Source of the DNA: an uncultured Sunxiuqinia sp.
GTDB taxonomy: Bacteria; Bacteroidota; Bacteroidia; Bacteroidales; Prolixibacteraceae
DNA length: 64,000 nucleotides
Assembly: GCF_963678245.1 (NCBI RefSeq)
Contig: NZ_OY782773.1
Coordinates: forward strand, 186,001 to 250,000
Direction of reading: 5' to 3'
The notes under the pieces are model-generated. The model did no database searches and had not been told where the DNA came from. It worked only from the letters and a program-made list of their open reading frames with translations. Positions 14,244 to 46,961 of the stretch are shown here, one piece after another (within the stretch, counting starts at the first letter, position 1; each line of letters begins with the position of its first letter). Position numbers and translations under genes: made by a program.

Positions 14244-14292
14244 TTTACGTGAAATTACCCATTGTGTCAGGAAAGATCTCATCGCATATTTG
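14244..14292 (+). promoter_or_regulatory. Shared promoter/operator element, copy 1 (biosynthesis operon)
   Basis: TTACGTGAAATTACCCATTG (14245-14264) is identical to the copies ending at 43068 and 46933. Exactly 22 nt later comes TATTTG (14287-14292), again the same as in the other copies. Read as a Bacteroidota promoter, CCCATTG supplies the -33 TTG and CATATTTG a one-mismatch TAnnTTTG box, 20 nt apart. The upstream TTACGTGAAATTACC part would then be an operator or activator site. The start of transcription would be near 14299, some 340 nt before the first gene. Confidence 0.75.
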
Positions 14293-14638
14293 ATGATATA
14301 GGATTTGCATCATTCACGCTTTGCTAAATAAAGTATGTGGGTGAAAGGGCGAAGCGGTATCTTCTCTGAAAATAGGGGGAATAAAAACCCGGTTTTAAGG
14401 AAGATTGAATTTTAAAGTTCACCAGAATAACATTTCTGTGAGTGAGGAGGCGAAGCTGTATCAGGCCCTCCTGTTTCCCCCCTTTTTATGATGTGCTAAT
14501 TTTATAAACTTATGATTTTTGGGACTGCTGTCCTTTGAATCGATAAGTAGTGAGGATACTGACCATATCCTCAGGTCTCTTGCGGTTAGGGGCAAGAAGC
14601 TAGTAAGACTATATCAAAAGTAAAGAAATACATGTGTG
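14293..14638 (+). promoter_or_regulatory. Long structured untranslated leader of the biosynthesis operon
   Basis: No gene lies in this stretch. It holds GGCGAAGCGGTATC at 14348-14361 and GGCGAAGCTGTATCAG at 14449-14464. The second is identical to a box in the UpxY leader at 43222. It sits in the loop of a hairpin whose arms are AGGAGG (14445-14450) and CCTCCT (14467-14472), with a T-run at 14483-14487. Two further hairpins follow: TGAGGATA/TATCCTCA (14551-14558 with 14566-14573) and TCTTGC/GCAAGA (14578-14583 with 14592-14597). It looks like an attenuator-type leader. Confidence 0.6.
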
Positions 14639-15733
14639 ATGAGACAAAACAAAATTCTTACGGAAGATCTATTAAAGATTTTTAATGGACTGACCGATCA
14701 AGAGAAGGCAAAATTTGATAATTCAACGATCCTTCTAACAGGCTGCGGTGGCTTTTTAGGCTACTACTTCGTTCATTTTCTAACAAAGTACAAAGAGCAG
14801 TTAAACATTCGAAAGATTATTGCCCTTGATAACTTTCTTACGGGTAATAAAGATTGGCTAGACGAAGTGAATGATGAATACGACTTCTTTTCACTTCATG
14901 AATTCAATATCATCTCTGATGATATTGCTTCAGTTCCTGATTCTGATAAGGCCACTTTGATCATTCATATGGCTTCCATAGCCTCACCTACCTTTTATCG
15001 TATTTATCCTGTAGAAACGATTGATGCAAATATCACAGGTTTGCGAAGATTGTTTGACTATTACCTGGATAAAAAAATTACCGGATTTTTATTCTTCTCA
15101 AGTAGTGAAATTTATGGTGATCCTGCAAAGGAATTTATCCCTACACCTGAGACTTATCGCGGCAATGTGAATACGATGGGCCCTAGGGCTTGTTATGATG
15201 AAGCCAAACGATTCGGAGAAACAATGTGCTGGATTTTTAACAGCAAATACGATTTTCCGGTGACTATTGCTCGTCCTTTCAATAACTATGGGCCCGGAAT
15301 GAGTATTCACGACAAAAGACTTCCTGCTGATTTTGCAAAATGCATTCTTGATCAACGTGATCTAAACATTCTGTCTGATGGTAAACCGACTCGTACATTT
15401 TGCTATATTTCAGATGCGATTACAGGTTATTTAAAAGTGTTAACTCACAATAAGCTTGAAGCTTTCAATATTGGTATTGATAAGCCGGAAATTTCAGTAA
15501 GAGAGTTTGCGGAACTATATGTGAATAATGCAAAGTCAATTTTTGACTATACTGGGAAAGCAACTTTTGGCAAGTCAGATGATAAAGATTACATGACAGA
15601 TAATCCAAATCGTAGGTGCCCTGTTATCGACAAGGCTAGGGCTATGTTAGGGTATAATCCTACAGTTTATGTGGATGAAGGTATCGGTCGGTTTCTTGAG
15701 TTTTTGAAAATTTATAATGGTAAATTGTTATGA
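14639..15733 (+). CDS. NAD-dependent sugar-nucleotide epimerase/dehydratase (extended SDR, UDP-glucuronate decarboxylase-like)
   Basis: 364-residue extended short-chain dehydrogenase/reductase. ILLTGCGGFLGYYF is the GxxGxxG NAD site. SSSEIYGDP and the catalytic YxxxK (CYDEAKRFGE) follow, along with RPFNNYGPGM. The sequences GPRACYDEAKRFGE and NPNRRCPVIDKARAMLGY resemble UDP-xylose synthase. It therefore probably acts on a UDP-uronic acid or a related sugar, which fits the nucleotide-sugar dehydrogenase that overlaps its stop by 4 bp (ATGA). A GTG lies directly before the chosen ATG. The N-terminal 30 residues form an unusual leader before the Rossmann fold. Confidence 0.85.
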   Translation: MRQNKILTEDLLKIFNGLTDQEKAKFDNSTILLTGCGGFLGYYFVHFLTKYKEQLNIRKIIALDNFLTGNKDWLDEVNDEYDFFSLHEFNIISDDIASVPDSDKATLIIHMASIASPTFYRIYPVETIDANITGLRRLFDYYLDKKITGFLFFSSSEIYGDPAKEFIPTPETYRGNVNTMGPRACYDEAKRFGETMCWIFNSKYDFPVTIARPFNNYGPGMSIHDKRLPADFAKCILDQRDLNILSDGKPTRTFCYISDAITGYLKVLTHNKLEAFNIGIDKPEISVREFAELYVNNAKSIFDYTGKATFGKSDDKDYMTDNPNRRCPVIDKARAMLGYNPTVYVDEGIGRFLEFLKIYNGKLL

Positions 15734-16986
15734 AAATTACAGTACTTGGATTAGGATTTGTTGGCCTGACTACTGGACTCGGCTTTGCAAAAAAGGGATT
15801 TCAAACCTATGGATTTGATGTTGATTCAGACCGACTAAATTCACTTAAAAGTTTTAAAATTCCTTTTCACGAACCCCATTTAGAGGATATCTTAAAAGAG
15901 ACTTTCGATAAGTCATTTTACCTTGATGTTGATTTTGAAACAGCAATTAAAGATAGTGACGCCATATTTCTATGCGTAGGAACTCCAAGTAAAGAAGATG
16001 GAAGCGCTGACTTGAAGTATATTTATGCTGCTATTGAGCAGGTGTTGAATGTTAATACGGACAAGTTGCAGGTTATTATTACCAAATCAACTGTTCCACC
16101 TTCAACGGTTTCACAAAAGATTATTCCTTTTGTCGAAGAGAAGCTGGAAAAGCTTCCCGGACGAAAAGTTGTCTTTGCTTCAAATCCCGAATTTTTGCGT
16201 GAAGGTTATTGCTGGGAAGACTTTATAGAACCAGATCGAATTGTAATTGGAGTCGAAGAAGAGAACGCTAAAAGTATTTTGGATGAGATATATAAGCCTT
16301 TTAATGCGCCAATCCATTATGTAAGCTACAATTCAGCGGAGTTTATTAAATACTTGTCGAATACTTTACTGTCTACTTTGATCAGTTATGCAAATGAAAT
16401 GTCAGTAATAGCAGGAAAGATAGGGGATATTGATATTCCAAAGGCTTTTCGAATACTACATGAGGACAAGCGCTGGTTCGGAGCTCCTGCCGGAATGTCA
16501 AAATACGTTTATCCAGGATGTGGTTATGGAGGTTATTGTTTGCCCAAAGATACTTCAGCTCTTGTTCAAAAATCAATTGAAAGTGGTTTTGAGCCAAAAA
16601 TCCTTAAAGCGAATATTGATATCAACGATAAAATCAAATATTACATCACCGAATCCATTGAAAAAAAAGTTGAAAAATCGGATTCAATTGGTATCCTCGG
16701 GCTATCGTTTAAGCCGGAATCTGATGATGTTCGGATAACACCTACCAAAGCAATTATAGAATTACTTTTCGAAAAGGGCTATCATTCGATTCATGCATAT
16801 GACCCAATTGCAAACGAAGAATTTAAAAAGTTTTATCCTGATATGGCAATCGATTATTGTAACTCATTGGATGAACTTCTCTCGAAATCTAACAACTTAT
16901 TAGTATTAACGGGCTGGAAAGAATTCGTTGAAAACAAAGATAAGATCCAAACCAAAACCGTATTTGATTACCGATACATCTACTAG
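15730..16986 (+). CDS. Nucleotide-sugar dehydrogenase (UDP-glucose/GDP-mannose dehydrogenase family)
   Basis: 418-residue enzyme that oxidises a nucleotide hexose twice to the uronic acid using NAD+. GLGFVGLTTGLGFAKKG is the N-terminal NAD site, STVPPSTV and NPEFLREG follow, and the catalytic cysteine is C270 in GCGYGGYCLPKD. GLSFKPESDDVR opens the C-terminal domain. Length fits UDP-glucose 6-dehydrogenase and its relatives. It overlaps the upstream SDR by 4 bp, so the pair could make a UDP-uronic acid and its product. Glucose, N-acetylglucosamine or mannose as the sugar cannot be decided by eye. Confidence 0.9.
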   Translation: MKITVLGLGFVGLTTGLGFAKKGFQTYGFDVDSDRLNSLKSFKIPFHEPHLEDILKETFDKSFYLDVDFETAIKDSDAIFLCVGTPSKEDGSADLKYIYAAIEQVLNVNTDKLQVIITKSTVPPSTVSQKIIPFVEEKLEKLPGRKVVFASNPEFLREGYCWEDFIEPDRIVIGVEEENAKSILDEIYKPFNAPIHYVSYNSAEFIKYLSNTLLSTLISYANEMSVIAGKIGDIDIPKAFRILHEDKRWFGAPAGMSKYVYPGCGYGGYCLPKDTSALVQKSIESGFEPKILKANIDINDKIKYYITESIEKKVEKSDSIGILGLSFKPESDDVRITPTKAIIELLFEKGYHSIHAYDPIANEEFKKFYPDMAIDYCNSLDELLSKSNNLLVLTGWKEFVENKDKIQTKTVFDYRYIY

Positions 16987-16988
16987 AT

Positions 16989-17528
16989 ATGTTTGAAAAA
17001 ATTGAAACTGAAATCCCGGGCTTATTTATTATTAAGCCTCGGGTTTTTTCAGATGACCGCGGACTTTTTATTAAACTATTCCACGATAAACTATTTGAAA
17101 AACTAGGACTGAGAAGCGATTTTAAAGAGGAGTATTATTCAACTTCGGAAAGAGGAGTTGTGCGTGGGCTTCATTTTCAAGCTCCACCTGAGCAGCACGT
17201 TAAATGTATTAGTTGTATACAAGGAGAGCTTTTTGATGCAGTAGTGGATTTACGCAAAGATTCGCCAACCTATGGTAAGCATTTTACGATCACTCTCAAT
17301 AGTAAAGAGCCTACGATATTATATATTCCGGAAGGTATGGCACACGGTTTTATGTCACTTGCTAGTGACACGGTTTTTCTGAATAAAACAACTTCAGTGT
17401 TTAATGCTGATTGTGATACGGGCGTTCGCTGGGATTCTTGTGGGATTAAATGGCCCAATATCCCTGTTATTCTTTCAGAGAAAGATGAAAATATGGTGCC
17501 TTTTGAAAAGTATGAAAGTCCGTTTTAA
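16989..17528 (+). CDS. dTDP-4-dehydrorhamnose 3,5-epimerase-like protein (RmlC family)
   Basis: 179-residue cupin of the RmlC family. The N-terminal IPGLFIIKPRVFSDDRGLFIKLF, the catalytic histidine in VVRGLHFQAPP, DAVVDLRKDSPTYG and IPEGMAHGF are all present. The rest of the dTDP-rhamnose pathway (RmlA, RmlB, RmlD) is not in the window. It may therefore act on a CDP- or UDP-linked keto sugar made by its neighbours rather than on dTDP-rhamnose. It starts 2 bp after the dehydrogenase and ends 14 bp before the SAF-domain oxidoreductase. Confidence 0.87.
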   Translation: MFEKIETEIPGLFIIKPRVFSDDRGLFIKLFHDKLFEKLGLRSDFKEEYYSTSERGVVRGLHFQAPPEQHVKCISCIQGELFDAVVDLRKDSPTYGKHFTITLNSKEPTILYIPEGMAHGFMSLASDTVFLNKTTSVFNADCDTGVRWDSCGIKWPNIPVILSEKDENMVPFEKYESPF

Positions 17529-17542
17529 AAAAATTGAATGAA

Positions 17543-18847
17543 ATGTATATAATTGACCAGAAACTCAAAGAAAGAGAAGCATCAAATAATCCAATCAAAG
17601 TTGGAGTGATTGGTGCTGGAGAAATGGGTAAAGGATTAATCAACCAAATTTGTCGTTATACACCCGGGATGATTGTTGCCGCGGTATACAATCGAACGGT
17701 TGAAAAAGTTGAGCAAGCCATGTTTGCTTCAGGTGTCAGAGGCACTCAGGTTGTTAAGTCTGAGCGTGAAATGACAATCGCAATTGAGAATGGAAAGACG
17801 GCTGTAACGAATGATATTGATGTATTAATCGAGTGCTCGGGAGTGGATGTATTGGTTGAAATGACCGGACATATTACTTTTGCTTTAGAGAGTATTTTAA
17901 AAGCATTTGAAAAAGGAAAGCATGTTGTCTCATTTAATGCAGAACTGGAAGCAACATTTGGCCCACTTTTAAAAGCTAAAGCAGCTGAAAACAATGTGCT
18001 TTACACATTGGGAGACGGCGATCAGCCGGGGGTTACTCAAAACTTGTTCCGACATGTTAAAATGATGGGTTTTGAACCTCTTCTTTGTGGTAATATCAAA
18101 GGTTTGCAAGACCATTATCGAAATCCATCAACCCAGGCTTCTTTTGCCAAACAGTGGGATATGACTCCTGAGATGGTTACAAGCTTTGCAGATGGCACAA
18201 AAATATCATTTGAACAAGCGGTTACTGCCAATGCAACGAATATGAGTGTTGCTCAGCGTGGAATGATAGGACCCAATTTTAAAGGGCATGTTGATGAAAT
18301 GACTTCTGGTTTTTATCCTGATGTGGATAAGCTAAAGGAGCTTGGAGGAATTGTGGACTATGTTGTTGGAGGCAAACCCGGTCCCGGCGTATTTATCTAT
18401 GCAACTACGAATGATCCATTGTCGGCCAAATACCTCAAATATGGAAAATTAGGAGACGGACCATTATATAGTTTTTACGTCCCCTATCATCTTCTCTTTT
18501 TTGAGTTGGCATTTTCAATTGCAAGACTAATAGACTTTAAAGATATTACGCTTAATGCAGAATATGGAATGAAAGTAGAAGTTGTTACAGTTGCTAAAGA
18601 GGATCTGAAACCCGGAGATAAAATTGATGGATTGGGGGGGTATAAAACATATGGGATATGTGACAACACTGTTTCCGCTAGAGCAGATAACCTCTTGCCA
18701 ATTGGATTAGCCGAAAACTGTGTCGTCAAAAGGTCATTAAAGAAAGATGAACTGATTGCACTAGATCATATCGAATTCCATAATCCGGCATTGCTCGAGC
18801 AATATAAAGGACAGATTGTGAAATCTGGCGAGTATACGGTGTCTTGA
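17543..18847 (+). CDS. NAD(P)-dependent oxidoreductase with C-terminal SAF domain (homoserine-dehydrogenase-like)
   Basis: 434-residue protein. An N-terminal Rossmann domain (VGVIGAGEMGKGL near residue 20) is followed by segments like those of homoserine dehydrogenase-type oxidoreductases. The C-terminal KPGDKIDGLGGYKTYG and AENCVVKRSLKKDE resemble an SAF domain. Its place directly after an RmlC-like epimerase in a nucleotide-sugar operon suggests reduction or oxidation of a sugar intermediate rather than amino-acid metabolism, but the substrate is unknown. An in-frame TTG nine bases upstream is less likely than the ATG at 17543. Confidence 0.75.
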   Translation: MYIIDQKLKEREASNNPIKVGVIGAGEMGKGLINQICRYTPGMIVAAVYNRTVEKVEQAMFASGVRGTQVVKSEREMTIAIENGKTAVTNDIDVLIECSGVDVLVEMTGHITFALESILKAFEKGKHVVSFNAELEATFGPLLKAKAAENNVLYTLGDGDQPGVTQNLFRHVKMMGFEPLLCGNIKGLQDHYRNPSTQASFAKQWDMTPEMVTSFADGTKISFEQAVTANATNMSVAQRGMIGPNFKGHVDEMTSGFYPDVDKLKELGGIVDYVVGGKPGPGVFIYATTNDPLSAKYLKYGKLGDGPLYSFYVPYHLLFFELAFSIARLIDFKDITLNAEYGMKVEVVTVAKEDLKPGDKIDGLGGYKTYGICDNTVSARADNLLPIGLAENCVVKRSLKKDELIALDHIEFHNPALLEQYKGQIVKSGEYTVS

Positions 18848-18890
18848 AAACTGAAGAAGAGATTTTCTTACTTCTGTATAATTTGTAAAT

Positions 18891-20057
18891 ATGAAAATAG
18901 CAATACTTACTCAGCCTTTACATGTGAATTATGGCGGGTTATTACAGAATTTTGCCCTTCAAAAAGTATTAAAAGATATGGGACATGAGGTTTACACTGT
19001 TGATCTCCCATTTCGAGATTTTTGGTATAGTAAATATCGAGCGATCGCTGCTAATATTGTAAAAAAATATATATTGGGAAGAAAAGAGATTTCAAACATT
19101 ATCCCTAAATCAAATGCCCCAACAGCTAAAGAGAAATTGATAATTAGTCAATACACTGAAAAATTTATTAGTGAGAATATTGATCTTACACAAAGGATTT
19201 CAATTGTTGAAAAACTACCAAAATTAAGAAACTATAATTTTGATGCTTTTGTTGTGGGAAGTGATCAGGTTTGGAGAATGGCTTATTCTCCGGGTATTTT
19301 TGCCTTTTTCTTAGATTTTCTTTTTAAAAATGAGAATATAACTAAAATTGCTTATGCGGCCTCTTTCGGTATTGATTATTGGGAATACGATGAAGTTACT
19401 ACTAATAAGCTCAAACTGTTAATCCAAAAGTTTGATGCAATTTCAGTGAGGGAGAAATCAGGCGTAAAACTTTGTAGAAAGTATCTGGATGTAAATGCAA
19501 ATTTTGTTTTAGATCCTACATTTTTATTAAAGAAAGAGCATTATGTCTTATTTGCAGAAAAAGCTCAATCTTATTTCTCCCCCCATAGTAAATCCATTTT
19601 GCTTTATGTGCTGGATGATTCTGCTATGAAACGGAAAGTTATTGCAGTAGTACAAGAAATGTTGGGAATGAAAACCACTTCGGCAATGCCAGAGAAGAAA
19701 TATGAAGAAAAAAATTGGAGCGACGTTGAAGAGTGTGTTTATCCTCCAGTTGAGAATTGGGTGAGGAATTTTATGGATGCAGAATTTGTAATAACTGATT
19801 CATTTCATGGAACTTTGTTCTCAATCATTTTTAACAAACAATTTCTTGTAATTGGGAATAAAGAACGGGGATTATCGCGGTTTAATTCTATTTTAGGAGA
19901 GTTGAATTTAGAAGATAGGATGATTATAGATGAAAAAGGATTGACTAATGATTTTATGACCACACCGATTAACTATGAAAAAGTGAATGAAATGTTATCA
20001 GATATGCAGGATTTATCAATTCACTTTTTAGAGGAATCGTTAGGAGTCAAGAATTGA
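18891..20057 (+). CDS. Polysaccharide pyruvyl transferase family protein
   Basis: 388-residue protein of the polysaccharide pyruvyl transferase family (CsaB/WcaK-like), which transfers pyruvate from phosphoenolpyruvate onto a sugar as a ketal. MKIAILTQPLHVNYGGLLQNFAL is a typical start, and FDAFVVGSDQVWR, YAASFG, SVREKSGVKLC, VLDPTFLL and DSFHGTLFSIIFNKQF are all family marks. It is followed 30 bp later by an F420-dehydrogenase-beta-like protein, a pairing often seen in polysaccharide loci. It would give the polymer an acidic group. Confidence 0.9.
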   Translation: MKIAILTQPLHVNYGGLLQNFALQKVLKDMGHEVYTVDLPFRDFWYSKYRAIAANIVKKYILGRKEISNIIPKSNAPTAKEKLIISQYTEKFISENIDLTQRISIVEKLPKLRNYNFDAFVVGSDQVWRMAYSPGIFAFFLDFLFKNENITKIAYAASFGIDYWEYDEVTTNKLKLLIQKFDAISVREKSGVKLCRKYLDVNANFVLDPTFLLKKEHYVLFAEKAQSYFSPHSKSILLYVLDDSAMKRKVIAVVQEMLGMKTTSAMPEKKYEEKNWSDVEECVYPPVENWVRNFMDAEFVITDSFHGTLFSIIFNKQFLVIGNKERGLSRFNSILGELNLEDRMIIDEKGLTNDFMTTPINYEKVNEMLSDMQDLSIHFLEESLGVKN

Positions 20058-20087
20058 CAATAATTACAGGTAAACAATTGATTTGAG

Positions 20088-21503
20088 ATGACAGAAGTTA
20101 GAGAACTATTTGAAACAGTAATTAAAAATAATTATTGTATAGGTTGTGGTGCATGTGCTTCAGTAAAAGATTCACCTTTTGAAATCAAAATGAATGAATA
20201 CGGTAATCTGGTTGCATTTGCTGATGAGGATGAACTTGATAATAGTAATGCAAAGGTCTTAAATATTTGCCCTTTTTCTGAGAAATCGAAAAATGAAGAC
20301 TTATTAGGGAAAGAATATTTTCCCAATAATAAGGTTGAAGACCATATGCTTGGGAAATATCTATCCTGTTATGCTGGATATGTTGTTGATGGAGAATTCC
20401 GAAAGCAGGGAGGTTCTGGAGGAATGGGAAAATGGTTGGGCTATACATTATTGGAGAAAGACATGATTGATTATTTCATTCAAGTAGCTCCTAATATGAA
20501 AAAGAAAGTAGATGATCATTTGTTTGAATACAAAATTTTTACAAATTACAATGATATTGTTGCTGGTTCAAAATCGGCTTATTACCCAACAACCTTATTC
20601 GATGTTATTAATTTCGTTAAAAAGAATGAAGGGCGTTATGCTATTACAGGAGTTCCATGTTTTATTAAAACCTTGAGATTAATTGGAATAGAAAATTCTG
20701 AATTTAGAGAAAGGATAAAATATACAATTGGGATTATCTGTGGAGGTATGAAAAGTGCCAATCAGGCATCTATTATTGGGATGCAGATGGGAGTTAGCCC
20801 AAAAGATTTAACTGGGATTGATTTTCGAAGAAAGTTTGAAGACATGCCTGCTTATCGTAAAACATACCAGGTTTGGTCAAGAAAAGATAAAATAGAAAGA
20901 TATGAAGAAGAAAGTAGGCTATATGGCACCGATTGGGGAATAGGCTTTTTTAAACCCATGGCTTGTGAATTTTGTGATGACGTTGTCGGTGAGACAGCCG
21001 ACATTTCATTAGGAGATGCCTGGCTTCCCAAGTATAGCTCGGATCCAAAGGGAACCAATGTTGTTATCGTTCGCAATAGAGAATTACAAAAGTTACTTGA
21101 AGAGGCCAATGAACACAAGTCTATATCAATAGAACCTTTAACAAGCGAAGAGGTAGTTCAATCTCAGGCGGGGGGCTTTAGACATAGACGAGAGGCTTTA
21201 TCAGTCCGGATTGCAAATAAGGAATCTCAAAATAAATGGTACCCGCCTAAGAGAATTAATAAAATAGATTATAAAATATCTAAAAAAAGACATAAGATAT
21301 ATAATTTGAGAGAAACTATTTCTCAAAACAGCCATATTGCAGCCCTTGACGCAATTCAAAAGAAAGATTTTTCTTTATTTAAAGCCAAAATGGATCCTTT
21401 TCTGATTCAATATAATAACTTAAATAAGCCCACTTTTTTTGATAAACTGAATAGGTTACTTAGGGATACTGTAAAAAGGTTTTTTAGTTTTTTTGATAAA
21501 TAA
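20088..21503 (+). CDS. Coenzyme F420 hydrogenase/dehydrogenase beta-subunit family Fe-S protein
   Basis: 471-residue protein with the FrhB/FdhB-type architecture. A ferredoxin-like start (NNYCIGCGACAS, with a further ICPF cysteine) is followed by GGSGGMGKWLGYTLLE and GVPCFIKTLRLIG. The cysteine pair in ACEFCDDVVGETADISLGDAW follows. Proteins of this type sit beside pyruvyl transferases in many capsule clusters. Coenzyme F420 is not generally made by Bacteroidota, so a flavin/Fe-S redox role in sugar or pyruvyl modification is more likely, but is unproven. It lies within the operon, with a 44-bp gap to the flippase. Confidence 0.83.
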   Translation: MTEVRELFETVIKNNYCIGCGACASVKDSPFEIKMNEYGNLVAFADEDELDNSNAKVLNICPFSEKSKNEDLLGKEYFPNNKVEDHMLGKYLSCYAGYVVDGEFRKQGGSGGMGKWLGYTLLEKDMIDYFIQVAPNMKKKVDDHLFEYKIFTNYNDIVAGSKSAYYPTTLFDVINFVKKNEGRYAITGVPCFIKTLRLIGIENSEFRERIKYTIGIICGGMKSANQASIIGMQMGVSPKDLTGIDFRRKFEDMPAYRKTYQVWSRKDKIERYEEESRLYGTDWGIGFFKPMACEFCDDVVGETADISLGDAWLPKYSSDPKGTNVVIVRNRELQKLLEEANEHKSISIEPLTSEEVVQSQAGGFRHRREALSVRIANKESQNKWYPPKRINKIDYKISKKRHKIYNLRETISQNSHIAALDAIQKKDFSLFKAKMDPFLIQYNNLNKPTFFDKLNRLLRDTVKRFFSFFDK

Positions 21504-21547
21504 ATTGAAACAAATGGTAGTGACTTTTTTGATAAAACACCTTTTTT

Positions 21548-23068
21548 ATGTCTGAATCAAATAACCAAAGGATAGCCAAGAATACGATATTGCTTTATAT
21601 CAGGATGGGATTTTCTATTGTGGTATCTTTATATACTGCTCGTATTGTATTGGAATCTCTCGGTGTCGAAGATTATGGCGTTTATAATGTTGTAGGAGGA
21701 TTTGTGGCCATGTTTTCCTTGATTTCTGGCTCATTATCAAGTGCATCTACAAGATTTCTTACTTTTGAGTTGGGACGAGAAAATCAAGCGGAGCTTAAAA
21801 AGGTATTTTCAACATCTATAAATATTCATTTGATTTTAGCGTTCTTAATTTTAATTATTGCTGAAGTTGCAGGTATTTGGTTTTTAAATAATAAAATGAA
21901 CATACCAGCAGACAGATTAGTCGCTGCTAATTGGACTTTTCAGTTTTCTATTTTATCGTTTGTCGTCAGTTTGATCAGCGTTCCTTATAATTCTGTGATT
22001 ATTGCCCATGAGCATATGAAAGCCTTTGCATATATATCTATCTTAGAAGTTATTCTAAAGCTCATTATTGTTTTATTATTGACCATTTCGCCCTATGACA
22101 AGTTAATTAGTTACTCGCTTCTTTTGCTTGTTGTTGCAATTGTTATCAGAGTAATTTATGGAATCTATTGTCATTATAATTTTGAAGAAAGTAAGTATTC
22201 TTTTGTTTTCGATAAGAAGCTATTTAAGCAGATGAGCGGATTTGCTGGCTGGAATTTTATTGGAACATCAGCATTGCTTTTAAAAGACCAAGGTGTAAAT
22301 ATTTTGCTTAATATATTTGCAGGTCCAGCAGTTAACGCAGCCAGAGGAATTTCATACCAAGTAAAAGGAGCAATTGGTGGATTTGCTCATAATTTTATGA
22401 CCGCAATAAATCCTCAAATTACAAAATCATATGCCTCAGGGGACAAAGAATATATGATGACTTTGATTCATCAAGGGGCAAGATTGTCATATTATTTGCT
22501 GTTTTTTTTGTCGTTACCACTTTTTGTAGAGGCCAATACAGTGTTGGATATCTGGTTAAAGGATGTGCCAGAGCATGCTGTTAATTTTGCGCGACTAATC
22601 TTGATTCTTACATTAGTTGATTCTCTATCAGAAACTCTAGTAATAGCTATGCTAGCAACTGGCAAAATCAAAAAATACCAATTGATCGTTGGCGGAATAC
22701 AGCTACTGAATTTCCCGTTTTCATATTTTTTGCTAAAAATAGGTTTCTTCCCGGAAGTTACGATGATTGTGGCAATTAGCTTATCAATTGTCAGCTTATT
22801 TGCACGTTTATATCTTTTGAGAGGGATGATCAATTTGGCATTTTCCGTATTTTTCAAACAGGTAATAATTAATGTTTTGTTAGTATCGGTCCTTTCAATA
22901 TTTATACCATATTGGGTATACTTATCTTTTGAAAGCGGTTGGATTCGGTTACTATTTGTATGCATGGTGAGTGTGGTATCTACGTTGTCTGCGATATACT
23001 TCGTAGGATGTTCAAAGCGAGAACGGAGTTGGATAAATAAAAAAATACAAACAGTATTAATTAGATAG
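21548..23068 (+). CDS. Wzx-like oligosaccharide flippase
   Basis: 506-residue integral membrane protein, about 14 hydrophobic helices, of the MOP superfamily. It starts NQRIAKNTILLYIRMGFSIVVSLYTARIVLESLG, then GVYNVVGGFVAMFSLISGSL, as in many Bacteroidota Wzx proteins. MSGFAGWNFIGTSALLLKDQG precedes the second half. It is the flippase most likely to serve the repeat unit built by this operon. It is followed by a 119-bp gap with overlapping inverted repeats. Confidence 0.9.
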   Translation: MSESNNQRIAKNTILLYIRMGFSIVVSLYTARIVLESLGVEDYGVYNVVGGFVAMFSLISGSLSSASTRFLTFELGRENQAELKKVFSTSINIHLILAFLILIIAEVAGIWFLNNKMNIPADRLVAANWTFQFSILSFVVSLISVPYNSVIIAHEHMKAFAYISILEVILKLIIVLLLTISPYDKLISYSLLLLVVAIVIRVIYGIYCHYNFEESKYSFVFDKKLFKQMSGFAGWNFIGTSALLLKDQGVNILLNIFAGPAVNAARGISYQVKGAIGGFAHNFMTAINPQITKSYASGDKEYMMTLIHQGARLSYYLLFFLSLPLFVEANTVLDIWLKDVPEHAVNFARLILILTLVDSLSETLVIAMLATGKIKKYQLIVGGIQLLNFPFSYFLLKIGFFPEVTMIVAISLSIVSLFARLYLLRGMINLAFSVFFKQVIINVLLVSVLSIFIPYWVYLSFESGWIRLLFVCMVSVVSTLSAIYFVGCSKRERSWINKKIQTVLIR

Positions 23069-23099
23069 AGCTAAAAGAGTTTGAATGGTGAAGTTCTGA

Positions 23100-23154
23100 A
23101 GTGCATAGAGAATCGTTTATGCACTAATATGTGCCTTATAATCAAATGTGCATA
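23100..23154 (+). promoter_or_regulatory. Two mutually exclusive hairpins between flippase and GT2
   Basis: AGTGCATA (23100-23107) can pair with TATGCACT (23118-23125). The same TATGCAC can instead pair with GTGCATA at 23148-23154. Alternative pairing of one shared arm is typical of attenuators, but no T-run follows. The role is therefore open; it could be RNA processing or protection within the operon. Confidence 0.4.
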
Positions 23155-23187
23155 ATTTCTTGTACTGTTTAAAAAAACAATTCACAC

Positions 23188-24195
23188 ATGGGTGCAACCA
23201 CATTATTGATTTCTATTATTGTTCCAGTTTACAATGCTAATAAATACCTTGATGAATGTATTAATAGCATTTTAAATCAGTCATTTAATTCCTTTGAATT
23301 GTTAATGGTGAATGATGGCAGTACGGATGATTCTGGTAGAATTTGCGATGAAATAGCGTCTACGGATGGTCGAGTAAGAGTTTTTCATAAAAAGAATGGA
23401 GGAGTCACTTCTGCAAGAAAGGTGGGATGGCAAAACTCAAAATGTAAATGGGTAGTATTTGTAGATGCAGACGACGTTTTACATGCTGACTGTTTAGATG
23501 TGCTTTATAAAAATGCAATCGATCGAAACTGTGATATTGTAAATGGAAGTTTTGAAAGCTTCCCAAACGGTAGGTTGTGGAGGCATAAAACATTGGGAAT
23601 GTTGTCGCAAAATGATTATCTAAAATCCCTTTTATTGGGAGAAACATACGGGGTACTGTATGCTTCCCTTTATAAGAGAGAAATTATCAAAGATTCTTCG
23701 TTTTCTTTTGATTCGTCTATAAAAATTGGAGAAGATGTATTGACAAAAATAGAAATTGGCTTTAGAGCAAAAGCGATATTAAATATTAGCGATGTGGTGT
23801 ATGATTATAGGGATAATGAGTCATCTGCAATGAATAATACTATATTGCATCCGTCATATTACGATAGATACCATAAATATAAGAAAGACTTATTTGTTAA
23901 TTCGGGGCTTTTGAGTACAGAGATTAAGGAGGTATTGGAGAAAGAGAAAATAAATTCTCAAATAGACGCTTTCTTTTCTCCATATATTTATTTTGATGGT
24001 CAATATTTTAACAATTTAAATAAGTACACAAAAACATATTCGATTTCGAACATAGATCAAGGTACAACTCGTGTTTTCTTTTTGGCTCTTAGATTTAAGA
24101 TTCTTTCTAAAGTAATTAAGTCTCTTTATGGGTATGCTTATAGGCTTAAGCATCGAAATCACAGTCTTAAAAACAATAAAAAGATAATTTATTAA
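23188..24195 (+). CDS. Glycosyltransferase family 2
   Basis: 335-residue GT-A enzyme. ISIIVPVYNANKYLDECINSIL, LLMVNDGSTDDSG and FVDADDVLH (DxD metal site near residue 95) are the classic GT2 sequence. IGEDVLTKIEIG follows, with the acidic ED of the catalytic region. The C-terminus is basic (RLKHRNHSLKNNKK), perhaps touching the membrane. It is in the middle of the polysaccharide operon. Confidence 0.9.
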   Translation: MGATTLLISIIVPVYNANKYLDECINSILNQSFNSFELLMVNDGSTDDSGRICDEIASTDGRVRVFHKKNGGVTSARKVGWQNSKCKWVVFVDADDVLHADCLDVLYKNAIDRNCDIVNGSFESFPNGRLWRHKTLGMLSQNDYLKSLLLGETYGVLYASLYKREIIKDSSFSFDSSIKIGEDVLTKIEIGFRAKAILNISDVVYDYRDNESSAMNNTILHPSYYDRYHKYKKDLFVNSGLLSTEIKEVLEKEKINSQIDAFFSPYIYFDGQYFNNLNKYTKTYSISNIDQGTTRVFFLALRFKILSKVIKSLYGYAYRLKHRNHSLKNNKKIIY

Positions 24196-24214
24196 TCATC
24201 AATTATGTTCTGTC

Positions 24215-25180
24215 ATGAAGATATACTATTTTTTCTTGAAAATACTTAGACAATTATATTTTATTGTGCGTCCAGATGCTAAGCCTAGTCTGCGAAACTG
24301 GAAGATGTTTTCAGATAAGGAATATGCAAATGATTTAATATATAATGCATTGTTAAACGATGAGCCATGTATGGTTGCTCGCTTTGGGTCTACTGAGATG
24401 TTAAATTTAGTCAACTACATAGGTGTTAAGCATAAAAATCGCTTCAAGAATTATAAAACTTATATTCAGGGCAAAACACCGCCTTGGTGGTGGGAGCAAT
24501 CAACGATTGATCAATTAAATCTATGGTCAGGTTTTTTCCCAGCACAAAAGAATAAAGTCGAAGAGTTTTGTGAGCTGTTTTTAAGTGATATAAAGCAGGT
24601 AGATATCTTAGGGTCATGGTTAATGGATGAACAGTATTTTAATATGGAACTTCGTTCCGTTAAAAAAGTTGTTTTAGAAGATTTGGAGCCATTTTTTGCT
24701 TCTAACCCATGGACCAAAGCATTGAAAGGGAAGAAGGTTTTGATTGTTCATCCTTTTGTCGAAACCATTGAAAGACAGTATCAAAAAAGAGAATTGTTAT
24801 TTGAAAATGAGTTATTGCCAGAGTTTGAGCTTAAAACGTTAAAGGCAGTACAAAGCATCGCTGGTAGTAAAACCCAGTTCTCTGATTGGTTTGAAGCACT
24901 GGATTTTATGAAGCAACAAATTGATTCAATTGATTATGATATTTGTATTGTAGGTGCAGGAGCATATGGATTCTCGCTTGCTGCACATGTAAAAAGAAAA
25001 GGGAAAAAAGCGATTCATTTGGCAGGAGCCACCCAATTATTATTTGGAATTATCGGGAAAAGGTGGGAAGAGTTTGTCGTGTGGCCCTATTCTAATCTTT
25101 TTAATGAGCATTGGGTCCGTCCTGGTGAGACGGAAAGACCCCAAGGTGCAAATAAAGTAGAGGGTGCCTGTTATTGGTAA
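24215..25180 (+). CDS. Putative GT-D-fold glycosyltransferase-like protein
   Basis: 321-residue protein. The pattern CMVARFGSTEM near residue 55, a central KGKKVLIVHPFVE and a C-terminal CIVGAGAYGFSLAAHVKRKGKKAIHLAG resembles the GT-D/DUF1792-type transferases found in capsule and adhesin-glycosylation loci. A Trp-rich stretch (PPWWWEQST) is unusual. It is flanked by a GT2 and an acetyltransferase in the same operon. Family assignment is by pattern only and no catalytic residue can be proven, so another nucleotide-binding fold remains possible. Confidence 0.6.
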   Translation: MKIYYFFLKILRQLYFIVRPDAKPSLRNWKMFSDKEYANDLIYNALLNDEPCMVARFGSTEMLNLVNYIGVKHKNRFKNYKTYIQGKTPPWWWEQSTIDQLNLWSGFFPAQKNKVEEFCELFLSDIKQVDILGSWLMDEQYFNMELRSVKKVVLEDLEPFFASNPWTKALKGKKVLIVHPFVETIERQYQKRELLFENELLPEFELKTLKAVQSIAGSKTQFSDWFEALDFMKQQIDSIDYDICIVGAGAYGFSLAAHVKRKGKKAIHLAGATQLLFGIIGKRWEEFVVWPYSNLFNEHWVRPGETERPQGANKVEGACYW

Positions 25181-25193
25181 TTGTTAAATTTGT

Positions 25194-25865
25194 ATGAAAA
25201 TGATAAGTCGATTGATTTTAGCCCCGGTTGGATTTTTCTATAAACTTGTTGAAGCTCTAAAGGAAGGGTCAAGGGATGTTAAGAATAAACTTGACTATAA
25301 GAATGCTAGTATTGAATCTGGATGCTGTATAAATGAACGTAGCAAAATAAGTCAGCATGTGCATATCTTCGAAAATTCTACTATTAATTATTCTAAGATA
25401 TCGTCATTTACATACATCGGTCGGAATTGTCTTATCCAAAATGCATCTATCGGCAAGTTTTGTTCTATTGCATCAGATTGTATGATAGGCCTTGGAAGTC
25501 ATCCTCTTGACATGTTCTCTACTTCGCCCATTTTTTATAGAAGGGATAATCCATTGAAATTTGAGTTGATAGAAGAGGAAGTGAATATTGAAGAATACAG
25601 TGCAATAGAAATAGGGAATGATGTATGGATTGGTACTCGGGCAATTGTTTTAGATGGAGTGGTAATTGGGACAGGTGCAGTTATTGCTGCGGGCTCTGTA
25701 GTGACTAAAGATATACCTCCATATGCGATTGTTGGTGGAGTTCCCGCAAAAATTATTAAATATAGATTCTCAGAAGAAGTAATTTCAGGGTTGTTAGGCT
25801 CTAGATGGTGGGATTTGGATATTGAGGAAATTATCTCAAAAATGTCAAATCACAAATTAGACTAG
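25194..25865 (+). CDS. Hexapeptide-repeat (left-handed beta-helix) acyltransferase
   Basis: 223-residue O-acetyltransferase of the CatB/Vat-like LbH family. Imperfect hexapeptide turns run from about residue 60 (NYSKISSFTYIGRNCLIQNASIGKF) and again from about 140 (IGNDVWIGTRAIVLDGVVIG, GAVIAAGSVVTKDIPPYAIVGG). The loop GLGSHPLDMFSTSPIF holds the catalytic histidine usual for this group. It probably acetylates a sugar of the repeat unit using acetyl-CoA. A perfect hairpin and the polymerase gene follow. Confidence 0.9.
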   Translation: MKMISRLILAPVGFFYKLVEALKEGSRDVKNKLDYKNASIESGCCINERSKISQHVHIFENSTINYSKISSFTYIGRNCLIQNASIGKFCSIASDCMIGLGSHPLDMFSTSPIFYRRDNPLKFELIEEEVNIEEYSAIEIGNDVWIGTRAIVLDGVVIGTGAVIAAGSVVTKDIPPYAIVGGVPAKIIKYRFSEEVISGLLGSRWWDLDIEEIISKMSNHKLD

Positions 25866-25923
25866 TTTATAAAGTCAACCTTTGGAATGTTTTGTTTGTG
25901 TGTAAGGGTGCAGTATTCGAAAT

Positions 25924-25950
25924 TTCTATAGTAGCAAGGCTACTATAGAA
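25924..25950 (+). repeat. Perfect 12-bp hairpin upstream of the wzy-like gene
   Basis: TTCTATAGTAGC (25924-25935) is the exact complement of GCTACTATAGAA (25939-25950), with a 3-base loop. It is followed by TAAAAAAG rather than a T-run, so it is not a plus-strand terminator. The wzy-like ATG lies 19 bp beyond. It may mask or expose the ribosome binding region or stabilise the downstream RNA. Confidence 0.6.
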
Positions 25951-25968
25951 TAAAAAAGATAATATTAA

Positions 25969-27249: not shown

Positions 27250-27267
27250 TCCATTAATATAGAATCT

Positions 27268-28967: not shown

Positions 28968-29012
28968 CCATCTGGGTTCTTGTATTTTCATTCACCGTTA
29001 ATTTTAGTTTCT

Positions 29013-32294: not shown

Positions 32295-32539
32295 ACCGTT
32301 TTGCCTGCTCTTTTAGGGAAACCCATTTTATCGAATGCAATATCGCAGATATTAATAATTGATATATCTATAACATTCGATCTAAAACTATCTATAACAA
32401 CGCTTCGTTATTACCCGATAAAGACATAAACTAATCTTTATTTCCTTATTGACTTAAATAAAATCTCAATAATTAATTATTGTTTGATCGTAAAAGCTTT
32501 TGAAATAGCTAGCGAAGTGTACACGAAATTTATTTTAAT

Positions 32540-34542: not shown

Positions 34543-34553
34543 CCCCAAATTTG

Positions 34554-35291: not shown

Positions 35292-35312
35292 TATTTCCTC
35301 AATTTGTATCAG

Positions 35313-35405
35313 ACCGATGGGGAATATGGACTAAAAATATGGCTGACGGATCTACTCCTCTTCTGAACGAACACAAACCGATGGGGAATATGGACTAAAA
35401 ATATG
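35313..35405. repeat. 29-bp direct repeat, two copies, 64-bp period
   Basis: A 29-bp sequence beginning ACCGATGGGGAATATGG is present at 35313-35341 and, without a change, at 35377-35405. The 35 bp between them is unrelated. It lies in the gap between the WecG-type gene and the acyltransferase. It might be a duplicated regulatory site or the mark of a past insertion or slippage event. Confidence 0.85.
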
Positions 35406-35471
35406 ACGAGTCTGCTTTTCATTGAAAGATAGAATTCCTGATACGTTAAATTTAGATAGATAGCATTAAGC

Positions 35472-36470
35472 ATGATGCGTGAAAGATTAGAGTATGTCGA
35501 CCAAATTAGAGGGTTCGCGATATTGCTAGTAATTGTTGGACACCTAATTCAATTTAATCAAATTGGTGGTGGTGACAGCAATCCACTTTTCAATGTGATT
35601 TATTCGTTCCATATGCCTTTGTTTTTCATGATAAGCGGATACATCGGCAGCAAAGTTTCAAAGGTTTCCAGTCTTCAGGGATATGGGTTATTTCTACTCA
35701 AGAAGGCAAAGGTTCTACTGATTCCCTATTTTTTTTGGCGATTAGTTATAAATAAATATTTCTTGACAGCTGAGTGGAGTCAAGTTGTTAGTATTGATGC
35801 AATTGGTGATGCTATAATCCACCCTCGATTATTGTGGTTCTTACCAATGCTTTTTGAAATATTTATCTTCTTTGGAGCTTTCTTGCTTGTGTCAAGTTGG
35901 GTCATGAAGCGTGCTAATATAGTAAGGGATCTGATTCTAGTCGTTAGTATTATTCTAATGATAATATCTGGAATATTCCTGATTGATAAGTCTCATTTTA
36001 CCTCCTTAAGTCTTTTTGCTTTTTCTTTTTTTACAGGAGTAATGGTTAGTAGACATAAAATGATTGAGAATCTGATGCTGTCAAGATGGGTCTTCTTACT
36101 TTTTCTAGTAAGTTTCTTAGTTTTCGCATGCCATTGGAAAGCAGGAGGAGACTATGGGGATGATATTTATAAAGTTATAATATCTGTTTCTGCTTTTATC
36201 TCAGTAATGAATATCTTCAGAAAAATCAAGTGGAATGCCATCTTTAGCCAGCAGCTAATGCTGATCGGAAGAGAATCATTAGTCATTTATGTCGTCCATT
36301 TTCATCTAGTCTTTTTAGGGCTAGGAAATCTAAGTAAGCTGACACTCAATCCACTTTTACTATTCTTTATTTTAACAATCGTAGCGGTTCCGATTGCCTA
36401 TTTTTGCATTGGATTTAGCAAAATTGTTCGTTTGTCTCCAGTTTTAAGCTTTTTGTTATTTGGCAAATAG
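35472..36470 (+). CDS. Acyltransferase 3 family membrane protein (OafA/WcaF-type O-acyltransferase)
   Basis: 332-residue integral membrane acyltransferase with about 10 helices. RLEYVDQIRGFAILLVIVGHLIQF carries the family's R and catalytic histidine near residue 23, and YSFHMPLFFMISGY is the second signature. It would transfer an acetyl or succinyl group onto the polysaccharide or lipid-linked unit. Two ATG codons adjoin; the first is used. It is the last gene of the operon, just before a strong terminator. Confidence 0.9.
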   Translation: MMRERLEYVDQIRGFAILLVIVGHLIQFNQIGGGDSNPLFNVIYSFHMPLFFMISGYIGSKVSKVSSLQGYGLFLLKKAKVLLIPYFFWRLVINKYFLTAEWSQVVSIDAIGDAIIHPRLLWFLPMLFEIFIFFGAFLLVSSWVMKRANIVRDLILVVSIILMIISGIFLIDKSHFTSLSLFAFSFFTGVMVSRHKMIENLMLSRWVFLLFLVSFLVFACHWKAGGDYGDDIYKVIISVSAFISVMNIFRKIKWNAIFSQQLMLIGRESLVIYVVHFHLVFLGLGNLSKLTLNPLLLFFILTIVAVPIAYFCIGFSKIVRLSPVLSFLLFGK

Positions 36471-36516: not shown

Positions 36517-36540
36517 AGTCAGTATCGTTTTGTATACTAA

Positions 36541-43047: not shown

Positions 43048-43096
43048 TTTACGTGAAATTACCCATTGCTTTGTGCAGCTCCTAATGTGATATTTG
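43048..43096 (+). promoter_or_regulatory. Shared promoter/operator element, copy 2 (UpxY operon)
   Basis: TTACGTGAAATTACCCATTG at 43049-43068, then TATTTG at 43091-43096, with the same 22-nt spacing as copies 1 and 3. The similarity to copy 3 extends further (CTTTG just after the element and ATATTTGGA at the -7 box). Transcription would begin near 43103, some 210 nt before the UpxY start. Confidence 0.75.
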
Positions 43097-43315
43097 GAAT
43101 ATCGATTGCATGCAAGTTGTCTGTTGTCTCCTATGGGAGTGGAGTGGCAAAGTCGTATTTAATCAAGTTGTCGAATGCTAGTTGCATTATGGGTCAGTTA
43201 TAGTCCGACTGTGATGCAAAGGGCGAAGCTGTATCAGTTTCAAACGATATTCTGTAAAGGGAAGATGAGGATTCTGGCTGATTTAATTGCAAGAATATAA
43301 AAAAAACAATGAAAC
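43097..43315 (+). promoter_or_regulatory. Untranslated leader of the UpxY gene with shared 16-nt box
   Basis: GGCGAAGCTGTATCAG at 43222-43237 is identical to the box at 14449 in the biosynthesis leader. Around it, ACTG-GAT (from 43208) can pair with ATCAGT (43233-43238) with one bulged base, which puts most of the box in the loop. No gene fits in this stretch. It may be a site where the encoded antiterminator acts on its own transcript. Confidence 0.5.
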
Positions 43316-43852
43316 ATGGAGCACATAAACTCAAGCTATAATTGGTACGCTTTGTATACCCGTTCGAGATATGAGAAAAAGCTACATCAAGATTTGTTTA
43401 ACAGCGGAGTTGAAAGCTATTTGCCATTGAAGGTTGAAAGACGTAAATGGAGCGACCGCATAAAAGTGGTAGAAGAACCTTTACTTAGAGGCTATCTCTT
43501 TGTTAAGGTGAGTAACCGCGAATATTTTGGTGTTTTGAATAATATTGGCGCGGTGAGTTATGTTACGTTTGGAGGCAAAGCTGCTACAATCCCTGAAAAT
43601 CAGATTGAGGGGTTAAGGAAAATAGTGGACAATTTTAACGACAAATTAAATGTGACACGTGAAAAGATCACTAAAGGAACTCAAGTTAGAGTGAAAAATG
43701 GTTTGTTGAAAGATGTGCTCGGAGAGATAGTCGAAATTCGTGGAAAGACTAGAATCGTTCTTCGTTTTCAAAGCTTGGGATACTGTTTGCACACCGAGAT
43801 TTCGATGAAGGAGGTTGAAATTCTAGACTCCAATGTAGTTGTTGATAAATAA
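43316..43852 (+). CDS. UpxY-like transcription antiterminator (NusG/RfaH paralogue)
   Basis: 178-residue NusG-family protein. NWYALYTRSRYEKKLHQDLF starts the NGN domain that binds RNA polymerase, and PLLRGYLFVKVSNREYFGVLNN continues it. A short linker leads to a KOW domain (ITKGTQVRVKNGLLKDVLGEIVEIRG). In Bacteroides, UpxY proteins let polymerase read through the long leader of their own capsule operon. Here the gene follows a leader that shares an element and a box with the 14-kb operon, so that operon is its likely target. It is the first gene before rfbF. A second ATG 7 bp upstream is out of frame. Confidence 0.92.
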   Translation: MEHINSSYNWYALYTRSRYEKKLHQDLFNSGVESYLPLKVERRKWSDRIKVVEEPLLRGYLFVKVSNREYFGVLNNIGAVSYVTFGGKAATIPENQIEGLRKIVDNFNDKLNVTREKITKGTQVRVKNGLLKDVLGEIVEIRGKTRIVLRFQSLGYCLHTEISMKEVEILDSNVVVDK

Positions 43853-45597: not shown

Positions 45598-46659
45598 ATG
45601 AAAAGCGACACTTTTGTAATTATTATGGCAGGAGGGGTTGGCAGCCGTTTTTGGCCGGTGAGTACCGAGCGGAAGCCTAAACAATTTTTAGATATGTTGG
45701 GTACCGGGAAAACCCTTTTTCAACATACCGTTGAGCGGTTTGATGAGATTTGTCCCAGAAGAAATATTTATGTAGTAACATCAGACCAGTACATTGATAT
45801 TGTAAAAAGTCAATGCCCCGAAATACCGGATTCGAATATATTAGCAGAACCGGTGATGCGAAATACTGCACCCTGTATTGCTTATGCGAGTTATAAAATT
45901 AATAAGCTTAACTCGAATGCCAACATCATTGTCACTCCGTCTGATCATTTAATTGAACAGAAACAGTTATTTCAAGAAGCGTTAGAAAAAGGCTTGAGTT
46001 TCGTGAGAGACAAGGATGCAATATTAACAATCGGAATTCAACCTCATCGACCTGAAACCGGTTTTGGTTATATCCAGATGGAGAAATCTGATGATGAGGT
46101 CGGAAAGGTTAAAGCTTTTAAAGAAAAACCGAATATTGAAACGGCTAAAGAGTATTTGCAGAGAGGCGATTTTTTATGGAATGCTGGTATTTTTCTATGG
46201 TCGGTAAAAACAATTACTAAAGCTTTTGAAACCTATATGCCCGCGATGGCCCGCGTATTTCAAAACGGCGAGGAGCTTTATTTCACAGATAAGGAGCAAA
46301 GCTTTATAGATCTAGTGTATCCAACTTTTCAGAGTATTTCAATCGACTATAGTCTGTTAGAAAAGGCAAATAACCTTTATGTTCAGAAGGCCAATTTTGA
46401 CTGGTCGGACTTGGGAACCTGGTCTGCACTTTGGGAAAAATCAGCAAGAAATTATAGCGGGGATACTGTATCATCAGAAAATGCGTACCTGTATGAAACC
46501 TCAAATAATATTATACATGTTCCTGAAGATAAAGTGGTCGTTGTTCAGGGGCTTAGCGAATATATAGTTGTCGAATCGAATAACGTATTGCTAATATGTA
46601 GTAAAGGTGAGGAGCAGCGAATAAAAGCATTCAGTCATAAGGCTTCTGGGCGTAAATAG
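45598..46659 (+). CDS. manC: Mannose-1-phosphate guanylyltransferase
   Basis: 353-residue enzyme that makes GDP-mannose from GTP and mannose 1-phosphate. IMAGGVGSRFWPVSTERKPKQF is the nucleotide-binding start. TPSDHLIEQ, FKEKPNIETAKEYL, FLWNAGIFLW, IDYSLLEKA and FDWSDLGTW are family marks. It lacks the C-terminal phosphomannose isomerase domain found in longer ManC proteins. It follows remnants of gmd and fcl, so today its GDP-mannose may be used directly as a mannosyl donor. An intergenic stretch and the third promoter copy follow. Confidence 0.94.
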   Translation: MKSDTFVIIMAGGVGSRFWPVSTERKPKQFLDMLGTGKTLFQHTVERFDEICPRRNIYVVTSDQYIDIVKSQCPEIPDSNILAEPVMRNTAPCIAYASYKINKLNSNANIIVTPSDHLIEQKQLFQEALEKGLSFVRDKDAILTIGIQPHRPETGFGYIQMEKSDDEVGKVKAFKEKPNIETAKEYLQRGDFLWNAGIFLWSVKTITKAFETYMPAMARVFQNGEELYFTDKEQSFIDLVYPTFQSISIDYSLLEKANNLYVQKANFDWSDLGTWSALWEKSARNYSGDTVSSENAYLYETSNNIIHVPEDKVVVVQGLSEYIVVESNNVLLICSKGEEQRIKAFSHKASGRK

Positions 46660-46912
46660 GTTTTCTTTTACTTCTGGCGATAGTACGGATCAAGATCTAG
46701 TTAGAATACCAGATTGTTGATGATTTTTTCAAGCTTCTACTTCATAGGTATAAGCTCTTTAACTTAGATTGCAGGCAAGTTTACCTGTCTGTCTCTGATG
46801 GCGATTCGAGTTACACTCTTCTGGTTAGATTGATTATTTCTGTGCCTCTCCATTCCTATTTTTCCGGCAGCTTCGTTCTCGTTAATGGACTTTGATTCAA
46901 CACGTAGGTATT
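46660..46912. other. Intergenic region after manC
   Basis: No coding frame. A stretch from about 46718 (TGTTGATGATTTTTTCAAGC...) has an imperfect counterpart near 47091 in the following leader (TTGATGATTTCATCAAGTTT...), with roughly three of four bases the same over about 50 bp by eye. No clean terminator for manC was found; CAGG/CCTG near 46772 is only a weak hairpin. Confidence 0.4.
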
Positions 46913-46961
46913 TTTACGTGAAATTACCCATTGCTTTGAGCATTTACTAATTAGATATTTG
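46913..46961 (+). promoter_or_regulatory. Shared promoter/operator element, copy 3 (assembly operon)
   Basis: TTACGTGAAATTACCCATTG at 46914-46933, then 22 nt, then TATTTG at 46956-46961, exactly as in copies 1 and 2. The predicted start near 46968 gives a leader of about 200 nt before the glycosyl phosphotransferase. The 16-nt GGCGAAGCTGTATCAG box seen in the other two leaders is not present here. Confidence 0.75.

Follow-up and report, generated by a model that had tools for sequence, protein, structure and literature searches.

How could a bacterium switch on together the genes that make a surface polysaccharide, those that assemble it and an elongation factor that may help to transcribe them? 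This question is raised by a stretch of 64,000 nucleotides (the window) from an uncultured Sunxiuqinia sp., corresponding to contig C7:186001-250000 (NZ_OY782773.1) in a genome of 4.87 Mb (GCF_963678245.1). A polysaccharide biosynthesis operon, the gene of an antiterminator of the UpxY family and an assembly operon are each preceded there by the same 20-mer, TTACGTGAAATTACCCATTG. The original prediction, made from the sequence of the window, had read this 20-mer and a box at fixed distance as marks of a polysaccharide regulon. It was right in outline but incomplete as to the shape of the site and the extent of the regulon, and it missed a second signal, TGKGASTGA-N3-GGCGRAGCTGTATC, which is present in the leaders of UpxY and of the biosynthesis operon. 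Our preferred reading, to which we assign a probability of about 0.58, is that a dimeric activator works on promoters of the primary sigma factor and that UpxY is then recruited at the leader element in two of the three operons.

As predicted, the three copies of the 20-mer (sites A, B and C, Table 1) are exact and lie on the + strand, and the 20-mer does not occur in 100 dinucleotide shuffles, even allowing for up to three mismatches. TATTTG starts at 14287, 43091 and 46956, that is, exactly 22 nt past each copy. When the whole genome was searched, the exact composite of TTACGTGAAATTACCCATTG, N22 and TATTTG was found solely at these three positions, all of them before polysaccharide or UpxY genes; Pfam and NF033644 agree with the three targets originally named. 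Upon allowing for up to three mismatches, a single extra site was obtained (C4:876719, ATACGGGAAATTACGCATTG, three mismatches), with TATTTA exactly 22 nt on, and the reversed 20-mer pattern gave no match in the genome. Identity among the flanks of the three copies is 28-30% over 100 nt upstream and 23-39% downstream. As the flanks are unrelated, the copies are not part of a longer repeat. The 22-nt spacers of sites B and C are 73% alike; for the other pairs the value is 36%.

The last three bases of the 20-mer, TTG, correspond to the -33 box. All three sites conform to TTG-N20-[GC]AnnTTTG, their -7 box being one mismatch from TAnnTTTG, and the assignment of the right part of the unit to a Bacteroidota promoter stands when compared with the consensus described for the primary sigma factor, sigma-ABfr (TTG/TTTG at -33 and TAnnTTTG at -7; PMC7366714). 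The window sites share both boxes with primary sigma-ABfr promoters; unlike the ordinary ones, they keep their spacing fixed, and a conserved 17-bp site covers the -33 box. When searched alone, TTG-N21-ATATTTG yields 33 matches versus 23 for its reversed control. As the -33/-7 part is by itself near background, specificity sits in the left part. No convincing inverted repeats, of the kind that would make the promoters invertible, were found flanking them.

The 20-mer is conserved within the genus (G001 and G003-G006 are assigned to the same genus as the window's genome, G000). Exact copies are present in six out of seven Sunxiuqinia genomes, numbering 3, 3, 2, 2, 2 and 1 (13 in all; the genome with one copy is 71% complete), and TATTTG is placed at +22 in 13/13. 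Their targets are UpxY in six genomes, the biosynthesis operon in five and the sugar transferase operon in two; the first gene seen in the five biosynthesis operons encodes an epimerase (two), a flippase (two) or a glycosyltransferase (one). One of the 13 sites overlaps a short open reading frame (ORF) of 88 amino acids (aa). Among 54 relatives outside the genus, 16 three-mismatch matches were obtained in 14 genomes; none has TATTTG at +22, and they were rejected as background. A degenerate version of site and box, searched over 84,980 species, returned 16 stretches, 14 of them in Sunxiuqinia. A site in a Poribacteria metagenome-assembled genome (L055) was discarded, as it looks like chance, and another in a Bacteroidales metagenome-assembled genome (L064) precedes a secreted-looking protein.

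Weaker sites precede a gene for a small exported-looking peptide in four genomes, in each case with a neighbour of 377-382 aa encoded divergently; the G000 neighbour, the one scanned, is similar to HprK-related kinase A, though with a score under the family cut-off. The peptides (L004:1501-1903 in G000 C4, L067, L065 and L038) are Gly/His/Asn- or Ser-rich and carry TRK(E/Q)AxKKxG.., and in L067 an NTP_transf_5 gene lies beyond the divergent neighbour. Lipoprotein-like genes are preceded by weaker sites in three genomes (G001, G004 and G005); the two proteins scanned both contain DUF4842, and one also passes the LruC cut-off. Further weaker sites are located before a gene that by eye is GDP-mannose dehydratase-like (G002) and at G003:C147, where the target is not clear. 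The polysaccharide regulon of the original prediction is therefore upheld for the exact sites, whereas with the weaker ones taken into account the regulon looks wider than polysaccharide genes.

To define the shape of the operator, 13 site types were compared, namely the strict 20-mer and 12 variants. Their information profile is roughly symmetric about position 9.5 of the 20-mer, and complementarity in the 12 variants, which were hand-chosen and mostly found by patterns derived from the 20-mer itself, peaks at the same centre (50% versus at most 43% at other centres). The operator is probably a dyad, TNNGTRAWWTYACNNA, that covers the -33 box in a Bacteroidota promoter of the ordinary type. 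Of the shared-regulator site proposed earlier, its position over a -33/-7 promoter is supported; as to its shape, the wider set favours a dyad over an asymmetric left part. If the -7 box spans -11 to -4, the operator would be centred near -42.

The promoter is also found at UpxY genes of relatives. TTG-N20-NAnnTTTG is present at 8/8 close UpxY loci (at least 56% identity; five from Sunxiuqinia, two from genus g15 and one from genus g23, a set that leaves out the second UpxY of G028, 56% identical) and at 1/20 more distant ones, these being the loci with an upstream region, one of just 182 nt (p = 3e-6, the genomes being related). The UpxY gene of G003 has such a promoter as well. The operator is kept at UpxY in three genera, so that both linked genes and conservation in relatives, as expected of a regulon, are found. 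Two sister genera combine it with a near-perfect palindrome, similar to ATGGG(T/G)RAAATTACCCAT, 99-101 nt upstream; from its centre to the -33 TTG the distance is 101 nt in G072, 99 nt in G061 and 100 nt in G028. At nine Sunxiuqinia promoters checked, there is no comparably good second operator nearby, just two three-mismatch matches. A search of the family for the composite promoter was positive in 10/140 genomes (control, 0); the match in G009 falls within an ORF, and G072 has an additional one ahead of a lipoprotein-like gene.

Palindrome matches within ORFs were dropped (L104-L107, L109-L117, L119-L121, L124-L128, L131, L136 and L137); by eye, many of these encode MGEIT in a single protein family. 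In two genera, a near-perfect palindrome, ATGGGTAAAATTACCCGTTA, lies 12-13 nt before an integrase-like gene (by eye; L135 in G000 C6 and L108 in G113) and was set aside. Repeated palindromes, ATGGGTRAAATCACCTATTG, with similar flanks are located near short or lipoprotein-like genes at L132:12874 and 15053 (G087 C74) and in L103.

As to the second signal, GCGAAGC occurs three times in the window, always in the leaders of the biosynthesis operon and of UpxY, and the whole pattern, allowing for one mismatch, has three occurrences in the genome, at these same places. When 13 leaders were considered, 16 sense copies of GCGAAGC were counted in 11 of them and none in antisense, versus a mean of 0.10 and a maximum of 2 in 300 shuffles; the heptamer lies in leaders and on the sense strand only, a trait of ops-type signals. 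Biosynthesis leaders carry two copies of the element in 5/5 cases, the first one 56-61 nt past the -7 box. In leaders A and B, no intrinsic terminator was detected anywhere from the promoter to the gene, loops longer than 8 nt being outside the scan. At 14445-14472, AGGAGG and CCTCCT were noted by eye to flank a 16-nt stretch with most of the second element copy, a loop too long for that scan, and a T-rich sequence follows; the same pairs are present in G004.

The element also turns up elsewhere in the order. It was found in 27/140 genomes of the family (40 matches) and in 32/393 genomes of the order (35 matches; 23 families besides its own, minus three coding matches), the reversed control giving 0 in both searches. 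NCBI places Sunxiuqinia in the Prolixibacteraceae, Marinilabiliales; the order searched here is wider and comprises more than 100 families. When the heptamer was left free (TGKGASTGANNNGNNNNNNNTGTATC, exact), 13 matches were obtained in 12/393 genomes, the window's own included (control, 0): 11 read GCGAAGC and two GCGGAGC, so that GCG(A/G)AGC accounts for 13/13. In the UpxY leader of G020, GCGTAGC is found in a similar setting.

Upon inspecting 59 loci with the element, five were seen to overlap an ORF of more than 150 aa (L142, L170, L184, L185 and L186), and seven, two of them among those five, lack an ORF of 100 aa within 1 kb downstream. Of the remaining 49, 42 were scanned, seven Sunxiuqinia loci being left out (for L143, the ORF scanned is another than the one picked). 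The scanned proteins, mostly the longest ORF within 1 kb and not always the first gene, included Poly_export (9), epimerase (6), UDP-sugar dehydrogenase (4), GT4 (4), DegT (1) and NusG (1); about 25/42 would hence belong to polysaccharide families or NusG, provided that the categories do not overlap. Other downstream genes look unrelated. In L191:1-1404, the element lies 97 nt before a gene that by eye is tail-sheath-like, which suggests a use beyond polysaccharide operons, and a small protein resembling helix-turn-helix proteins (..LITSKTR.., by eye) follows the element in L177, L190, L194, L196 and L143.

The leader element is probably an ops-like recognition site of UpxY. UpxY scores over the cut-off in 24/28 element-positive genomes versus 13/25 element-negative genomes of the same families (p = 0.015), a comparison with hand-picked negatives that leaves out the window's own genome and three genomes with coding matches; as the genomes are related, p values here overstate independence. 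In 10/28 element-positive genomes, the element lies 75-1655 nt from the UpxY gene, on the same strand. GCGNAGC is present in the leader at 8/8 close UpxY loci, always as GCGAAGC, and at 1/20 distant ones, as GCGTAGC.

The sequences, their fixed spacings, their targets and their conservation are observed; from those of the operator we infer activation rather than repression, the sigma factor used, binding and the start sites. The primary Bacteroidota sigma factor would use the three promoters through TTG at about -33 and the TAnnTTTG-like box at about -7, and a dimeric activator on TNNGTRAWWTYACNNA, near -42, would touch RNA polymerase. It would jointly switch on UpxY and both polysaccharide operons, perhaps along with a few exported proteins. 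In a second step, at two of the three operons, polymerase would pause at TGKGASTGA-N3-GGCGRAGCTGTATC, where the GCGRAGC heptamer on the non-template strand would fold into a GNA mini-hairpin; UpxY would bind the hairpin and the upstream duplex, so that polymerase could traverse the long operon. What we infer from the leader element comprises pausing, the hairpin, antitermination and the part of UpxY as reader. Such a mini-hairpin has a precedent: d(GCGAAGC), with a GNA loop and two G-C pairs, is described as extraordinarily stable (Tm 78 C; PMC4686876), and the leader heptamer GCG(A/G)AGC obeys the same rule. The DNA hairpin is known from DNA chemistry and aptamers, and here it is proposed as a regulatory element. 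We give even odds to the broader proposal that the element is an order-wide UpxY-type recognition site, with GCGRAGC as a non-template mini-hairpin at the paused polymerase, an independently evolved counterpart of ops which, linked to a dyad operator in control of UpxY and of its targets, would be part of a coherent feed-forward loop in Sunxiuqinia and the sister genera.

Several points, besides the choice of variants and of UpxY loci mentioned above, weigh against this reading. The strict 20-mer pairs 4/9 at the proposed centre, versus 5/10 one base further and 3/6 elsewhere, and the peptide-gene site L004 can also be read as a 10-bp direct repeat. The UpxY gene of G002 has leader element and dyad but no -33/-7 promoter in register. 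The leader of the assembly operon is devoid of the element in both genomes where its site was seen. Where the element is near UpxY, it lies after UpxY, before the next gene, in 6/10 cases, and before UpxY in 4/10; four out of 28 element-positive genomes, two of them about 80% complete, have no UpxY over the cut-off. Folding programs predict a stable structure for the 26-nt element neither as DNA nor as RNA; the hairpin rests on the published d(GCGAAGC) data. Finally, no regulator gene can be named: Pfam identified no regulator but UpxY among 40 window proteins, and by eye none of the genes downstream of a palindrome match looked like one for a regulator. Given the form of the site, CRP/FNR-like or NarL/FixJ-like dimers would be conceivable candidates.

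The element might instead act as RNA, bound by UpxY or by another factor. Its location downstream of promoters and on the sense strand only would suit this, and a paper on LoaP considers possible contacts with non-template DNA next to RNA hairpins (PMC12691694); yet three representatives have no stable or consistent RNA fold and no Rfam family was matched in the window, and we consider this explanation unlikely. About as unlikely is that a repressor uses the dyad as its operator and occludes the -33 box, with joint derepression of the targets and, in the sister genera, a distal palindrome that helps by looping. The overlap of the operator with the -33 TTG would also suit such a repressor, as would the near-perfect palindromes and the fixed 99-101 nt of the distal one. 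However, each of the three window sites has an imperfect -7 box, a hint that the promoter needs help, and a centre near -42 is typical of activators.

It appears improbable that an alternative, extracytoplasmic function sigma factor uses all 48 bp as its promoter, with the 20-mer as the -35 region. The 20-mer is invariant in 13 copies, the 22-nt spacing is rigid and the strict 20-mer is by itself not clearly a dyad; nevertheless, the boxes match the primary sigma consensus given in PMC7366714 (TTTG and TAnnTTTG), the conserved part is about 17 bp wide, and sister genera have a related palindrome on its own, 100 nt upstream. Perfect identity over 20 bp at three points within a single gene cluster could also come from gene conversion or from the recent spread of a repeat, devoid of function. 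This is scarcely credible, considering the unrelated flanks, the same 20 bp in six genomes before non-homologous first genes with diverged spacers, and the contradiction posed by the fixed TATTTG spacing in 13/13 copies.

The features of the window are listed in Table 1. The start codon of the epimerase in the biosynthesis operon may be a GTG at 14636. Between this operon and UpxY, on the opposite strand (36541-41871), a 1776-aa protein with cadherin, laminin-G and beta-helix domains and a Por secretion tail is encoded within the polysaccharide cluster. A second UpxY paralogue, 53% identical, is located at G000:C1:687466-687966 (L138), and neither operator nor leader element was found near it.

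Table 1. Putative regulatory sites and genes in the window
Feature	Position	Strand	Remarks
Operator and -33 box, biosynthesis operon (site A)	14245..14264	+	Exact 20-mer; dyad core GTGAAATTAC 14249-14258; TTG 14262-14264
-7 box CATATTTG, site A	14285..14292	+	TAnnTTTG with one mismatch
Leader element copy 1, biosynthesis leader	14336..14361	+	TGTGGGTGAAAGGGCGAAGCGGTATC; GCGAAGC at 14349; one mismatch
Leader element copy 2, biosynthesis leader	14437..14462	+	TGTGAGTGAGGAGGCGAAGCTGTATC; GCGAAGC at 14450
Biosynthesis operon: epimerase, UDP-sugar dehydrogenase, sugar isomerase, pyruvyl transferase, flippase-like, glycosyltransferases, WecG, acyltransferase	14639..36470	+	Pfam; inferred extent
Operator and -33 box, UpxY gene (site B)	43049..43068	+	Exact 20-mer; same UpxY site in five further Sunxiuqinia genomes
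-7 box GATATTTG, site B	43089..43096	+	
Leader element of UpxY	43210..43235	+	TGTGATGCAAAGGGCGAAGCTGTATC; GCGAAGC at 43223
UpxY-family antiterminator (NusG paralogue)	43316..43852	+	PF02357; NF033644 145.9 bits, cut-off 100
Operator and -33 box, assembly operon (site C)	46914..46933	+	Exact 20-mer
-7 box GATATTTG, site C	46954..46961	+	Leader downstream without leader element
Assembly operon: sugar transferase, Poly_export/SLBB export protein, Wzc-like GNVR/AAA protein	47169..51895	+	Pfam; inferred extent

The ops sequence is GGCGGTAGCGTGC; the leader element reads GGCGRAGCTGTATC and does not match it. The element resembles ops in its proposed working and is not a member of ops. In gamma-Proteobacteria, ops (within JUMPstart) is likewise a short leader element before polysaccharide operons, and its reader RfaH, a NusG paralogue, recognizes a small non-template DNA hairpin at the paused polymerase (PMC7819879). 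Here, in contrast, phylum, protein family and sequence are others, the upstream TGKGASTGA is conserved as well, biosynthesis leaders carry two copies, and recognition by UpxY is proposed. RfaH is described as the sole well-studied NusG paralogue, the mechanisms of others being unclear, in PMC12691694, which also cites a contact of UpxY with the upstream DNA duplex. In the UpxY/UpxZ system of Bacteroides, UpxY is also encoded beside polysaccharide operons and acts in the 5' leaders of capsule operons (PMC7819879). Unlike there, several operons have here a common operator and a common leader element, and the promoters lack inverted repeats like those of invertible Bacteroides promoters. Four motif strings had no match in the literature text searched, a limited body of papers.

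Taking into account the common operator together with a second leader signal that probably recruits an elongation factor, a two-step switching of the coat seems likely. With a 26-nt element that keeps its mini-hairpin heptamer strictly, occurs in over 20 families of the order and mostly precedes polysaccharide genes, target recognition by UpxY becomes directly testable outside Bacteroides. The operator, in turn, suggests a two-level, feed-forward wiring of the bacterial surface coat and offers a bait for its regulator.

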